Part shown: piece by piece, positions 6,677 to 12,258 of the stretch | How positions within the stretch are numbered: the stretch's first letter is position 1 | How the letters are laid out: the number at the start of each line of letters is the position of its first letter | The notes under the pieces: generated by a model | Database searches by the model: none | What the model was told of the DNA's origin: nothing | Seen by the model: the letters and a program-made list of their open reading frames with translations, nothing else | Position numbers and translations under genes: made by a program | DNA from: Serratia plymuthica | Lineage (GTDB): Bacteria > Pseudomonadota > Gammaproteobacteria > Enterobacterales > Enterobacteriaceae | Direction of reading: 5' to 3' | DNA length: 64,000 nt | NCBI RefSeq assembly: GCF_018336935.1 | Contig: NZ_CP068771.1 | Coordinates: 2,542,001-2,606,000, forward strand

Positions 6677-7459
6677 TCAAATTTGCCAGCGATGCCAGGC
6701 CTGTGGGAACAGTCTTGCGAAGCGTTTTGCCCAAGCCCGCTGACCAGGTTCATCGGCGATCAGGTCCTGGCGGATCTCGATGCCAACGTAAGGTAACCGA
6801 CGCCGCTCCGCATGCACCGGCAAGGTGTAATCCGTCGCATCGGTCATCGCGTAAGGTTCGTTGACCCCCACCTGCAAATCCCCTTCCTCCCGCAACAACT
6901 CAGCCAGCAGGTGGGCAAACTCCGGTTGGCGATTAAACAACAACCCAACTTGCCAGGGACGGGAGTTACCTTTGAACACCGGCGTAAAACTGTGCATTGC
7001 GATAATGGCGGTCGGCTTTCCGCGCAGCTGTCGTTCGCCCAGCGTATGGTCAATGCTGTGATGATACGGCAGGAAAATCTCACGCTCGCGGGCCAACGCA
7101 TGCTCGGCATCAATGCCGATATTGCCGGGAACAGGCGTCAGTTCCGACAGCGACGGGATCGAACTGGCGATGCCGGGGGCCCGATTGCAGTCAATCACTA
7201 AACGCGAGTAACGCTGATGAATCAACGTGGCGTCCAGATGGCGACTAAGATGACGTGAAACCGCCAAGGCGCCGATATCCCAACCGATATGACGGTCGAT
7301 TTCACCGGGCGGCAGGCCCAGATCACCCAAACGTTGCGGTATCGCCTGGCCGGCATGATCGCACAGTAATAAAAAAGGCGCGGCACCGTTGGGCGTTTCA
7401 ACCGCAACGGCGGGTGGCTCATCGGCGGATAGCAACTGCGGGATAAAGGACTGTGACAT
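6677..7459 (-). CDS. N-formylglutamate amidohydrolase family protein
   Basis: A 260-residue FGase-family (HutG-like) zinc hydrolase. The opening 'LLLCDHAGQAIPQRLGDLGLP' and the later 'AIIAMHSFTPVF' and 'VGIEIRQDLI' are characteristic blocks carrying the metal-binding His and Glu residues. The canonical reaction is N-formyl-L-glutamate to glutamate and formate at the end of one histidine degradation route. No hut genes are nearby, so the real substrate may be another N-acyl amino acid. It is 73 bp upstream of ycgR on the same strand and may be co-transcribed with it. Confidence 0.8.
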   Translation of the reverse strand: MSQSFIPQLLSADEPPAVAVETPNGAAPFLLLCDHAGQAIPQRLGDLGLPPGEIDRHIGWDIGALAVSRHLSRHLDATLIHQRYSRLVIDCNRAPGIASSIPSLSELTPVPGNIGIDAEHALAREREIFLPYHHSIDHTLGERQLRGKPTAIIAMHSFTPVFKGNSRPWQVGLLFNRQPEFAHLLAELLREEGDLQVGVNEPYAMTDATDYTLPVHAERRRLPYVGIEIRQDLIADEPGQRAWAKRFARLFPQAWHRWQI

Positions 7460-7556
7460 GCAAAACTCCTGGGTGGGATAAACCTTTATCCTAGCGCTAT
7501 CCCACCACTGGCCCCAAGCCGGGGCTTAGATCAAAAACGCATGAACGCGGGGCCGA

Positions 7557-9278
7557 TCACTCTATGCAAGCGTCCTGCGGTTGATGAACCGCAATATAGC
7601 GCTGGAAGCGCGACGGTTTAAGCCGGGTGAGATCAACCAACACCAAGCCGTCGATGCAGTTGTTGAACGCCGGATCTGTACCGAAATCAATAAACTGCAC
7701 CCCGCCCGGCTCGCACAGCTCGGTATACTGTTTATACAAGGTAGGGATCGAGCAGCCGATATTGCTCAGCAGGCTTTTCAGCCGCACCAGATCTTCTTGA
7801 TAATTATCGCCGGCAAACTGCGCCAGGACCTGCGGCAACGAAGCCGGGTAAGGTTGACGCGACTGCGCCAGCGCGCTCCCCGGTGAGAAATACAGCCGGT
7901 AGAAGGCAATCAACAGATCACGCGCCGCCACCGGCATGCCGCCGGAGATGGAGACCGGCCCAAACAGATAGCGATACTGCGGATATTTGGCCAGATAGGC
8001 GCCGATGCCCAACCACAGGTAATCCAGCCCACGCTTGCCCCAGTAAGCCGGTTGGATAAAGCTGCGACCCAGTTCTATGCCCTGCGCCAGGATCGGCGCC
8101 ATATCGCGGTCATAATGGAACAGGCTGTTGCTGTAGATACTTTCCAGCCCCTTGCGCTCCAGCTGCTCGGCGGTGGGAATAAAGCGGTAAGCGCCGACGA
8201 TTTCCAGTTCGTCCGCATCCCATAACACCAGGTGATAATAGTCGTCGTCATAGCTGTCCAGATCGCGCCGACGGCCGGAGCCTTCGCCCACCGCGCGGAA
8301 AGCAATCTCGCGCAGGCGACCTAATTCACGCAGGATGGGTGTACGCGCCTCATCCTGGCGGCGATACAGGTAAATGATTTTACCGTCCGGCGTTACGCCG
8401 AGCCGCTCGCAGTTGGCCAGCGCTTTCTTCAGCTCAAGCCGATCCTCAGGCAGGGCGATGGCCGATTCGCTGGCGAACAGCCCTTCCTTGCCCTGGCCCA
8501 AACGATAAACGTGACGACGGAAGCGCTCGGCCAAATCTTTGGCGCTGGTGTGGCCATCGTGCCAGTTGGCGAACGGAATACGGCCGCCAACGCGGATTTT
8601 GATACGGCCGCCCTGCTGCTGGAACATTTCACGCACCAGCAACAGGGTAGATAACGGGCGATAAATCAATGAAGTGAAATAAAACAGATTGCTGTTACGC
8701 GCGCTGATGTGGATCGGCACAATCGGCGCCCGCGCCTTGGCCGCCAGGCGTAGAAAGCCGGTATGCCAGTGGCCGTCGCGGATGCCTTTCGGGCTCATGC
8801 GCGACACTTCACCGGCGGGGAACAGGATCAGCGCGCCCTGTTTATCGAGTTGCGCCTGCATACCTTCGATTTGCTTGCGGCTGGTTTTATAGCCTACGTT
8901 GTCCACCGGCACGAACAGGCTGCGCAGCGGTTCTATATAGGTCAGCAGCTGGCTGGCAACCACCTTTACATCCGGCCGCACCGCCGCGACTGCACGCAGC
9001 AGCACCAGTCCGTCCAACGAGCCGATCGGGTGATTTGCCACCAGCACCACCGGCCCCTGGCTGGGAATGTTTTCCAGGTCACCGTCTACCAGTTCACAAC
9101 TGAGGTTGAAGTAGTCCACCACTTGTTCGATCAAATCCAGCCCTTTCAGGTGCGGATAATCGGCGGCAAACTGTTTGAATTCTTTTTCGAAGAGTAAGGT
9201 TCTCAGCAGGCTACGCTGCCAGGCAGGGGTATTGCGGTGTGGAAATGCATCTTGCAACAGAGAATCCAAGCTGAACAT
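7557..9278 (-). CDS. olsF: bifunctional ornithine lipid synthase OlsF (copy A)
   Basis: 573 residues. The N-terminal half (about 70-270) is a PlsC-like acyltransferase with NHPIGSLDG (His83, Asp89), the FPAGEVSR block and 'PIVPIHI'. The C-terminal half (about 300-570) is a GNAT-like domain ('REIAFRAVGEGSGRRRDLDSYDDDYYHLVLWD'), as in OlsB-type N-acyltransferases. This fused order matches OlsF, described in Serratia proteamaculans, which N-acylates ornithine and then O-acylates lyso-ornithine lipid to give the phosphorus-free membrane ornithine lipid. A Pho-box-like site lies upstream. The gene is a tandem paralogue of the next copy. Its stop is 97 bp from the amidohydrolase start. Confidence 0.88.
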   Translation of the reverse strand: MFSLDSLLQDAFPHRNTPAWQRSLLRTLLFEKEFKQFAADYPHLKGLDLIEQVVDYFNLSCELVDGDLENIPSQGPVVLVANHPIGSLDGLVLLRAVAAVRPDVKVVASQLLTYIEPLRSLFVPVDNVGYKTSRKQIEGMQAQLDKQGALILFPAGEVSRMSPKGIRDGHWHTGFLRLAAKARAPIVPIHISARNSNLFYFTSLIYRPLSTLLLVREMFQQQGGRIKIRVGGRIPFANWHDGHTSAKDLAERFRRHVYRLGQGKEGLFASESAIALPEDRLELKKALANCERLGVTPDGKIIYLYRRQDEARTPILRELGRLREIAFRAVGEGSGRRRDLDSYDDDYYHLVLWDADELEIVGAYRFIPTAEQLERKGLESIYSNSLFHYDRDMAPILAQGIELGRSFIQPAYWGKRGLDYLWLGIGAYLAKYPQYRYLFGPVSISGGMPVAARDLLIAFYRLYFSPGSALAQSRQPYPASLPQVLAQFAGDNYQEDLVRLKSLLSNIGCSIPTLYKQYTELCEPGGVQFIDFGTDPAFNNCIDGLVLVDLTRLKPSRFQRYIAVHQPQDACIE

Positions 9279-9333
9279 CGCGTTATCTCCTGGCTTAGTC
9301 GCTGCAAACTTAAGCCAGCGCTATGACCCTAAC

Positions 9334-9351
9334 ATGTCAGTTACATGACAA
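9334..9351 (-). promoter_or_regulatory. Pho-box-like PhoB site upstream of olsF copy A
   Basis: On the minus strand TTGTCATGTAACTGACAT is two 7-bp PhoB half-sites (TTGTCAT and CTGACAT, each 6/7 to CTGTCAT) separated by 4 bp, the standard Pho-box geometry. It lies 55 bp upstream of the ATG at 9278. Ornithine lipids replace phospholipids during phosphate starvation in several bacteria, which makes PhoB control plausible. No confident -10 hexamer was identified. Confidence 0.7.
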
Positions 9352-9535
9352 AAAAATGAAATCCCTCGACCTATCAGGTATAGCAAATTATTGAAGGTAG
9401 GGTGGCGATGGTTTTTCCATCACTGCCGATATCGCATTTTAAGCTACCGACGCCGCTGCCCAGAGGGATTGACTGTCGGCATGCCGTTACTGCTGCCTAT
9501 CCCCCCAGAACAAAAACGCATGAACGCGGGGCCGA

Positions 9536-11257
9536 TCACTCTACGCAAGCTTCCTTCGGTTGATGAACCGCAATATAGCGTTGGTAGCGCGACGGTTTAA
9601 TCCGGGTGAGATCAACCAACACCAGCCCGTCGATGCAGTTGCTGAACGCCGGATCTGTGCCGAAATCAATAAACTGCACCCCGCCCGGCTCGCACAGCTC
9701 GGTATACTGTTTATATAAGGTGGGGATCGAGCAACCGATGTTGCTCAGCAGGCTTTTCAACCGCACCAGATCTTCTTGATAATTATCGCCGGCAAACTGC
9801 GCCAGGACCTGCGGCGACGAAGCCGGGTAAGGTTGACGCGACTGCGCCCGCGCGCTCCCCCGTGAGAAATACAACCGGTAGAAGGCAATCAACAAATCAT
9901 GCGCCACCCCCGGCATCTTGCCGGAGATGGAGACCGGCCCAAACAGATAGCGGTGCTGCGGATATTTGGCCAGATAGGCGCCAATGCCCAACCACAGGTA
10001 ATCCAGCCCACGCTTGCCCCAGTAGGCCGGTTGGATAAAGCTGCGGTCCAGCTCGAGGGCCTGCGCCAGGATCGGCGCCATCTCGCGACCAAAATGAAAC
10101 AGGCTGCTGCTGTAGATACTTTCCGGCCCCTTGCGCTCCAACTGCTCGGCGGTGGAAATAAAACGGTAAGCGCCGACGATTTCCATCTCGTTCACATCCC
10201 ATAACACCAGGTGATAATAGTCATCGTCATAGCTGTCCAGATCGCGACGACGGCCGGAGCCTTCGCCCACCGCGCGGAAAGCGATTTCGCGCAGGCGACC
10301 TAATTCACGCAGGATGGGCGTACGCACCTCATCCTGGCGGCGATACAGATAAATGATTTTACCGTCCGGCGTTACGCCAAGTTGTTCGCAGTTAGCCAGC
10401 GCCTTCTTCAGCTCAAGCCGATCCTCAGGCAGGGCGATGGCCGATTCGCTGGCGAACAGCCCTTCCTTGCCTTTGCCCAGACGATAGACGTGGCGCCGAA
10501 AACGGTCGGCCAAATCTTTGTCGCTGGTGTGGCCATCGTGCCAGTTGGCGAACGGAATGCGGCCGCCAACGCGGATTTTGATACGGCCGCCCTGCTGCTG
10601 GAACATTTCACGCACCAGCAACAGGGTGGATAACGGGCGATAAATCAATGAAGTGAAATAAAACAGATTGCTGTTACGCGCACTAATGTGGATCGGCACA
10701 ATCGGCGCCCGTGCCTTGGCCGCCAGGCGTAAAAAACCGGTATGCCAGTGGCGGTCGCGAATGCCTTTCGGGCTGATGCGCGACACTTCACCGGCGGGGA
10801 ACAGGATCAGTGCGCCCTGTTGATCGAGTTGCGCCTGCAAGCCTTCGATTTGCTCGCGGTTGGTTTTGTCGCCCAGGTTACCCACCGGCACAAACAGGCT
10901 GCGCAGCGGTTTTATATAGGTCAGCAGCTGGCTGGCAACTACTTTTACATCCGGCCGCACCGCCGCGACTGCACGCAGCAGCATCAGCCCTTCCAGCGAG
11001 CCGATCGGGTGATTTGCCACCAGCACCACCGGCCCCTGGCTGGGAATGTTTTCCAGGTCACCGTCTACCAGTTCACAGCTGAGGTTGAAGTAGTCCACCA
11101 CTTGTTCAATCAAATCCAGCCCTTTCAGGTGCGGATAATCGGCGGCAAACTGTTTGAATTCTTTTTCGAAGAGTAAGGTTCTCAGCAGGCTACGCTGCCA
11201 GGCAGGGGTATTGCGGTGTGGAAATGCATCTTGCAACAGAGAATCCAAGCTGAACAT
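9536..11257 (-). CDS. olsF: bifunctional ornithine lipid synthase OlsF paralogue (copy B)
   Basis: 573 residues, same length and domain order as copy A and roughly 92% identical by eye. The start is the ATG at 11257 (MFSLDSLLQDAF); an in-frame extension upstream to 11362 has no support. Differences cluster at 89-165 and in the GNAT half. The acyltransferase motif reads NHPIGSLEG, so Asp89 of copy A is Glu here; other members of this PlsC-like group are known to me to carry E, so activity may be kept. It may differ from copy A in acyl-chain choice or lyso-lipid use, which is inference. Confidence 0.85.
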   Translation of the reverse strand: MFSLDSLLQDAFPHRNTPAWQRSLLRTLLFEKEFKQFAADYPHLKGLDLIEQVVDYFNLSCELVDGDLENIPSQGPVVLVANHPIGSLEGLMLLRAVAAVRPDVKVVASQLLTYIKPLRSLFVPVGNLGDKTNREQIEGLQAQLDQQGALILFPAGEVSRISPKGIRDRHWHTGFLRLAAKARAPIVPIHISARNSNLFYFTSLIYRPLSTLLLVREMFQQQGGRIKIRVGGRIPFANWHDGHTSDKDLADRFRRHVYRLGKGKEGLFASESAIALPEDRLELKKALANCEQLGVTPDGKIIYLYRRQDEVRTPILRELGRLREIAFRAVGEGSGRRRDLDSYDDDYYHLVLWDVNEMEIVGAYRFISTAEQLERKGPESIYSSSLFHFGREMAPILAQALELDRSFIQPAYWGKRGLDYLWLGIGAYLAKYPQHRYLFGPVSISGKMPGVAHDLLIAFYRLYFSRGSARAQSRQPYPASSPQVLAQFAGDNYQEDLVRLKSLLSNIGCSIPTLYKQYTELCEPGGVQFIDFGTDPAFSNCIDGLVLVDLTRIKPSRYQRYIAVHQPKEACVE

Positions 11258-11312
11258 CGCGTTATCTCCCGGCTTTGCCGCTGCAAACCTCCGACAGCGC
11301 CATAACCCTAAC

Positions 11313-11330
11313 ATGTCAGTTACATGACAA
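11313..11330 (-). promoter_or_regulatory. Pho-box-like PhoB site upstream of olsF copy B
   Basis: The same 18-bp sequence TTGTCATGTAACTGACAT as ahead of copy A, again 55 bp upstream of the start codon (11257). It is perfectly kept while flanking bases differ between the two units, which argues for selection on it. Confidence 0.7.
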
Positions 11331-11400
11331 AACAATAAAATCCCTCGACCTGTCAGGCACATCAGCTTATTGAAGATAGGGCGGCAATGGTTTTTCCATC

Positions 11401-12258
11401 ATCTCCGCCGCCGCATTGTTATGCGCCTGAAACGATCGCTCATAGGTACCAACTGCGGTAAACATGCCGTCGCACACTGCGCACTATACTCGTAACCCTG
11501 ACTGCCCACCACAAAAAACATTAATATAATTTCACTATCACTCATTTTATCGCGTTACTTCATTCATCCTCACCATGATCAAATCCATCAACGAAGAGAA
11601 TTTCGACATTTCTTAAAATAATTTTACACACGAAGTAACTTGCAATTTATTTCTTTATTTTAAATCAATGTACTTTATTTAATTCTTGTTAATTAAATGA
11701 GTTTCAAATCAATTAAAAGAGGGATTGGCGATATCCAACCCCCACACAACACTGGCGTTATCCATCATCTGTCGATAAAAAATAAAACCAATAAAATCAA
11801 ATGGAAGAATAAAGCACACTTCGAAAAAAGAACTATTACACCTACTTGTCAAATACGCATGGATAACGGCGACGTCGTTTCCGCCGGATATCTAAAAATC
11901 ACTTAAATTTATTTCCCCCACATCACCATTTCGATAAATAAAATATCATATGAATTAATTTTAGTCATAACCATTGATGGCAAAAATAATAACAGCAGGA
12001 TACGAAGAGTAATCATCGACTATAGCCAATCCCGTAAAGACGGTGTGCCATCAATGAAAAATCATTAAAAACACCGGAATTAAACATAAAATTAACTTAT
12101 GATTATATGTGTTCATTAATGGTTTATCTCCATCGAACACCGTCGATATCTGGCGAACAGCAAAGCTTCATCCCCCTCCATCTTCATGTCCGAAATCCGC
12201 CATCGCCCCGCCGCATTTCGTGCAATAATCTCCCCATCAACCGAGAGGAGTAATCAAA
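11401..12258. other. AT-rich, mostly non-coding stretch between olsF and ogt
   Basis: About 860 bp, markedly AT-rich from about 11510 to 12130 (long T/A runs, TTAATTAAAT at 11687-11696) in a GC-rich chromosome. Only a weak 69-codon frame is present (separate entry). No promoter, terminator or RNA gene could be recognised apart from the ogt ribosome binding site GAGGAG at 12244-12249. The composition suggests a foreign remnant or an H-NS-bound region. Confidence 0.6.
11697..11906 (+). CDS. hypothetical small basic protein, doubtful
   Basis: A 69-codon frame inside the AT-rich gap. The product is rich in Lys, Ile, Asn and Thr with no signal or membrane segment, and I recognise no family. No Shine-Dalgarno sequence precedes the ATG, which sits in TTAATTAAATG. 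It could be a remnant of a transferred gene or a chance frame. Confidence 0.25.
   Translation: MSFKSIKRGIGDIQPPHNTGVIHHLSIKNKTNKIKWKNKAHFEKRTITPTCQIRMDNGDVVSAGYLKIT

Follow-up and report, generated by a model that had tools for sequence, protein, structure and literature searches.

Do two copies of one lipid synthase gene, lying one behind the other on a bacterial chromosome, still do the same work? The question is raised by a 64,000-nucleotide stretch of the Serratia plymuthica genome (NCBI RefSeq assembly GCF_018336935.1, contig NZ_CP068771.1, positions 2,542,001 to 2,606,000 of the forward strand; hereafter the window). It carries two olsF genes head to tail, copy A downstream and copy B upstream, offset by exactly 1979 bp. 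OlsF is the enzyme for a phosphorus-free membrane lipid. The answer that we hold to be fairly probable is that A is the working OlsF and that B, a young tandem duplicate, is probably impaired and has been under selection that is relaxed but not absent.

An earlier note on this DNA, made from the letters alone, had described two 573-codon olsF genes with this period, and both the open reading frames (ORFs) and the alignment bear it out (Table 1). The ORF of copy B is listed with an upstream start (608 aa); we used the 573-codon start, which aligns with that of A and has the conserved leader 5' of it. The identification as OlsF also holds. Both products lie over the cut-off (620) of the curated OlsF model NF052615, with 839.8 bits for A and 819.5 bits for B, and cover model positions 1–569 of 570. 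PF19576 and PF01553 (acyltransferase) and PF13444 (GNAT) are over cut-off in both, in one chain. The closest named relatives found, from S. plymuthica and S. inhibens, are each 99% identical to A, and no solved structure matched A by sequence in a search up to E 1.

The copies differ at 105 of 1719 coding nucleotides and 43 of 573 residues. Beyond the coding sequence the homology extends over 29 nt of 3' flank and ≈165 nt of leader, so the common flanks described earlier are real, and the "operator" placed in them is probably a Pho-box-like sequence that is identical in both leaders. The junction spacer between the repeat units had no match beyond the source genome among the loci compared; no wider search was made. 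Given that the source genome is a single contig (5,455,815 bp) and that the two copies are 6% apart, it is very unlikely that the tandem arose as an assembly artefact.

Table 1. Features of the olsF tandem locus, in positions of the window.
Feature	Position	Strand	Remark
olsF copy A	7557..9278	-	573 codons; downstream copy, conserved ancestral type
olsF copy B	9536..11257	-	573 codons; upstream copy, fast-evolving
Repeat unit A (3' flank, gene, leader)	7528..9444	-	right end approximate
Repeat unit B (3' flank, gene, leader)	9507..11424	-	right end approximate; likeness to relatives reaches 11433
Junction spacer between repeat units	9445..9506	.	≈62 bp, matches neither unit
Shine-Dalgarno AGGAGA, copy A	9286..9291	-	AGGAGA in 14 of 15 aligned rows
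Altered Shine-Dalgarno GGGAGA, copy B	11265..11270	-	sole row of 15 so changed
Pho-box-like site, leader A	9334..9351	-	matches a Pho-box consensus at 14 of 18 positions
Pho-box-like site, leader B	11313..11330	-	identical to that of A

The relationship of the copies was analyzed with trees of 16 sequences and codon models of 9, both sets picked by hand. A and B were sisters in the whole-gene tree with a bootstrap of 100, and S. inhibens came next (88). They were also sisters in all five sub-region trees (support 78–90), in which the placement of S. inhibens relative to S. plymuthica varied. Synonymous divergence (dS) from A was 0.162 for B, 0.243 for S. inhibens, and 0.412 for S. plymuthica. 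A and B agree with each other against both of these relatives at 26 sites. The sister tree, the dS values and the 26 sites show that the duplication is younger than the split from S. inhibens; in it a single Serratia olsF was copied in tandem together with its leader.

Counting olsF copies across Serratia had been proposed in the earlier note. Among 30 genomes of the genus searched, source included, two copies were found only in the source, one copy in 25 and none in four, the last being genomes of 1.5–3.6 Mb. No second copy was found by tblastn in any of 28 loci with 5-kb flanks from other named records. At E 1e-100 the OlsF model matched in 61 of 198 genomes of a family sample and 199 of 394 of an order sample; the samples overlap, and scoring in the order sample was limited to three candidates per genome, so further copies there may be missed. 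Two matches occurred in 18 other genomes of these samples, which we searched again. In contrast to the tandem pair of the source, all 18 pairs lie at least 180 kb apart or on separate contigs. The weaker match is below the model cut-off in every one of them, and both are below it in five. Separately, the olsF genes of S. rubidaea NCTC12971 (L029:5001-6694) and Providencia stuartii NCTC11800 (L030:5001-6699) match in pieces and in different frames, which represents frameshifts or sequencing errors.

The pairwise alignment and dN/dS analysis, also proposed earlier, place nearly all of the divergence on copy B. Polarised on the relatives, the substitutions since duplication are 28 synonymous and 1 amino-acid-changing on A, but 32 and 44 on B, with one unresolved site assigned to B (Fisher p 1e-7). 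Synonymous change is similar on the two copies, which argues against B being more mutable or an import from a distant species. In the branch codon model the dN/dS ratio (omega) was 0.023 for the background, 0.012 for A (omega_A) and 0.46 for B (omega_B). The ratio of A did not differ from the background (p 0.49), while a separate ratio for B was favoured over one omega with p 3.7e-26. Without codons 1–88 omega_B changed little (0.45). It is also below 1 (p 0.004).

Where B has changed was judged against 114 proteins of 560–600 residues. They were retained from 119 fetched proteins, the top-listed among 6386 and 7167 hits, with the database proteins P0001 and P0002 excluded, and so represent the best-scoring relatives within this length range and not the family as a whole. 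Copy A keeps the conserved residues of both OlsF halves, whereas B carries D89E, D126G, Y389F, G404D, and R453H. The replaced residue is G404 in all 114 relatives and D126, Y389, or R453 in 113 each, and none of the relatives has the residue of B at 126, 404, or 453. Slightly less conserved are D89 and L481 (each in 111; D89E and L481S in B) and L358, P368, and G400 (each in 110; L358M, P368S, and G400A in B). The sequence N82-H83-P84 is invariant, and D89, shortly after it, resembles the acid of an HX4D-type block.

The sequence upstream of B has changed too. In 164 aligned nucleotides of leader, gap columns excluded, B has 23 changes and A has 5, and 2 could not be placed. The Shine-Dalgarno sequence of B is altered, and repeat-like bases 3' of the Pho-box-like site are kept in A and its close relatives and partly lost in B. 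The best Pho-box-like site stands at -73 in 17 of 22 leaders. When leader A was shuffled 2000 times, 4 shuffles reached a score of 14 and 42 reached 13 against the same consensus.

These results would fit a course of events in which copy A kept the ancestral job, with the GNAT half N-acylating ornithine and the acyltransferase half O-acylating the product, probably under PhoB control. Selection on copy B would have been strongly relaxed, with drift in its coding sequence, leader and Shine-Dalgarno sequence. It probably still gives an OlsF-like protein, with reduced activity and in slow decay.

Several observations weigh against a copy so relaxed. Copy B has no stops and no frameshifts, and its Pho-box-like site is intact. 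Its 42 changed residues include only one of the positions that are invariant in the 114 relatives, where about 11 would be expected at random (codons 89–573; random substitutions on the inferred ancestor, changing some 50 residues; P under 0.001 on fractions). Relaxation also cannot be read from counts alone, since the number of amino-acid changes on B is only marginally below neutral (P 0.02–0.12; for codons 89–573, P 0.04–0.14). Three of the 114 relatives naturally have glutamate at position 89, and two of these are named as Rouxiella proteins, so D89E need not inactivate. We therefore rejected the change of this motif Asp as proof of a dead B; in PatA, from another acyltransferase family, Asp-to-Ala in the motif is reported to have left 37% activity (PMC4792965). 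Finally, P0002, encoded on a 14.6-kb contig, is 98% identical to B (564 of 573 residues). Of the 43 positions that distinguish A from B, P0002 agrees with B at 35 and with A at seven (246, 251, 262, 292, 311, 568, and 569), and has a residue of its own at 451; it also differs from B at 394. As P0002 has so many of B's residues, most of the change in B probably predates the split between the two. Because invariant positions are avoided and omega_B lies between the background and 1, selection on B has been weakened but not lost.

The divergence is uneven along the genes, as the earlier note had claimed: residues 1–88 are identical and all 43 differences lie at residue 89 or beyond. Codons 89–170 hold 12 and codons 355–482 hold 22 of the 44 amino-acid-changing substitutions on B. 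In these blocks, which were picked after the data had been seen, omega_B was 0.69 and 1.22, compared with 0.17 in the other 363 codons (p 2.3e-5 against 1) and 0.18 in codons 246–311 alone. Fisher tests on the blocks gave p 0.0008 and 0.0006. Tests that need no chosen blocks did not find significant clustering of the changes on B (runs P 0.72, best segment P 0.096). No block has omega_B significantly above 1, and the 22 amino-acid-changing substitutions among 28 in codons 355–482 are not above neutral (P 0.18). The blocks being post hoc and the block-free tests not significant, we rejected region-specific selection on B as an established result, and the regional pattern is a suggestion only.

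Codons 1–88 differ at 3 of 264 nucleotides between A and B, beside a more diverged leader. Local gene conversion here, one of the explanations given in the earlier note, is plausible on these figures, though not proved; its other explanation, subfunctionalisation, is improbable, though an omega_B below 1 fits it. A second unusual patch is codons 244–264 of B (10466–10528), with 10 nucleotide mismatches to A in 21 codons; 6 of the 9 events placed on B are synonymous, and P0002 has A's residues at the three positions 246, 251, and 262 within it. This patch could represent local conversion or import. We compared four segments for import from another species and rejected it, finding no clear donor. 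Providencia rustigianii has 8 of the 10 differing nucleotides of codons 244–264 in common with B and is not among the seven nearest sequences overall.

An origin of B by import or patching from another species, or as an assembly artefact, is scarcely credible. The unshared junction spacer and the dense changes at codons 246–262 could be taken that way, as could the fact that in each of two of the four segments two Serratia genomes are closer to B than A is (by 1 nt in codons 244–264 and by 2 nt in codons 384–406), with S. inhibens tying with A in the other two. Yet over the whole gene none of six others compared is as close to B as A is, A and B are sisters in the whole-gene and all sub-region trees, synonymous change is alike on both, and the genome is one contig. 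An already dead gene, free of stops by chance, is highly improbable. With ≈2.1–2.6 stops expected from as many random substitutions, finding none is not rare enough to rule it out (P 0.06–0.11), and omega in codons 355–482 is not below 1, but the ratio for the whole of B is, and the avoidance of invariant positions is hard to reconcile with a dead gene.

The earlier note had proposed a raised dose of ornithine lipid, or a widened specificity, from two bifunctional enzymes. Both genes are indeed full length, over the OlsF cut-off and furnished with the Pho-box-like site, and there is a precedent: two working OlsF enzymes are described in Vibrio cholerae, one for low phosphate and one for low salinity (PMC12186959). 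That pair, VC0489 and VCA0646, matches the source in number per genome. It differs in that its members lie on two chromosomes, are 54% identical and both work in E. coli (PMC12186959), whereas the members of the source pair lie in tandem, share 92% identity and have one recent origin. Selection for dose should constrain both copies about equally, while here amino-acid change is 44 to 1, residues kept in 113–114 of 114 relatives are altered in both halves of B, and drift has also reached its leader and Shine-Dalgarno. The 44 to 1 asymmetry led us to reject dosage as the leading explanation; equal dosage from A and B is unlikely, and it is improbable that two working OlsF enzymes, through dosage or subfunctionalisation, raise the output of ornithine lipid here.

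A changed function of B is a minor possibility. Copy B would then still fold, with an altered acyl or amine specificity or making lyso-ornithine lipid only, and be retained for that. An omega_B below 1 overall fits this, as do the low ratio outside the post hoc blocks and the block Fisher tests; the database protein of B type also has the same residues in the patches, except at 394 and 451. The choice of blocks after the fact, the block-free clustering tests and the lack of any omega significantly above 1 count against it. So do the altered fixed residues in both halves and the drift of leader and Shine-Dalgarno as well. In its stronger form, B would be a newly diverged lipid synthase, its scaffold under selection and a burst of change in patches of both catalytic halves, which uses a new acyl or amine substrate, or stops at the lyso-lipid, beside a normal OlsF; this we consider rather unlikely.

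A working A beside a relaxed, probably impaired B would be a new instance of a familiar gene-duplication process, and two OlsF per genome are already known from V. cholerae. The first description of the OlsF pathway came from S. proteamaculans (PMC12186959). The OlsF of that species (NF052615 equivalog) has the two-half layout common to A and B, both of which pass the model. Two loci of S. proteamaculans show 97% identity to A, and the genomes to which these loci appear to belong (G017 and G018) have one match each, compared with two in the source. Relative to this OlsF, copy B departs at positions that are fixed in the relatives. We found no paper joining ornithine lipid with tandem duplication in the open-licence library searched. 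The locus shows, cleanly and in nature, a stress-lipid gene not long after tandem duplication, with one copy frozen and the other drifting. Should B still be active, the changes at its otherwise fixed residues would inform on how OlsF works, and a new product of B would mean a new branch of aminolipid synthesis. For now, the case is mainly a textbook story of gene duplication.

Some features of the surroundings remain to be described. A GC-rich inverted repeat 3' of copy A (7506–7528) is kept in S. inhibens and S. plymuthica and absent 3' of copy B; the pattern scan did not call it a terminator. In that scan of 7400–11700, promoter and terminator counts were at chance level (4 vs. 2.6 and 5 vs. 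4.9), and no site was used. Transcription of copy B may run on into copy A.

The intergenic stretch from copy B to ogt (11430–12175) is AT-rich, with 34.8% GC compared with 55.6% for the window, and had no match beyond the source genome among the loci compared, no wider search being made. The corresponding interval measures ≈0.1 kb in S. inhibens; in S. plymuthica it is ≈0.8 kb long and its sequence is unrelated. The upstream neighbourhood of olsF varies within Serratia: where the window has ogt, S. marcescens 106R (L012:3175-4845) and an S. liquefaciens metagenome-assembled genome (L004:3170-4831) have an ORF of 553–556 aa, which in S. marcescens 106R matches glycoside hydrolase 123.

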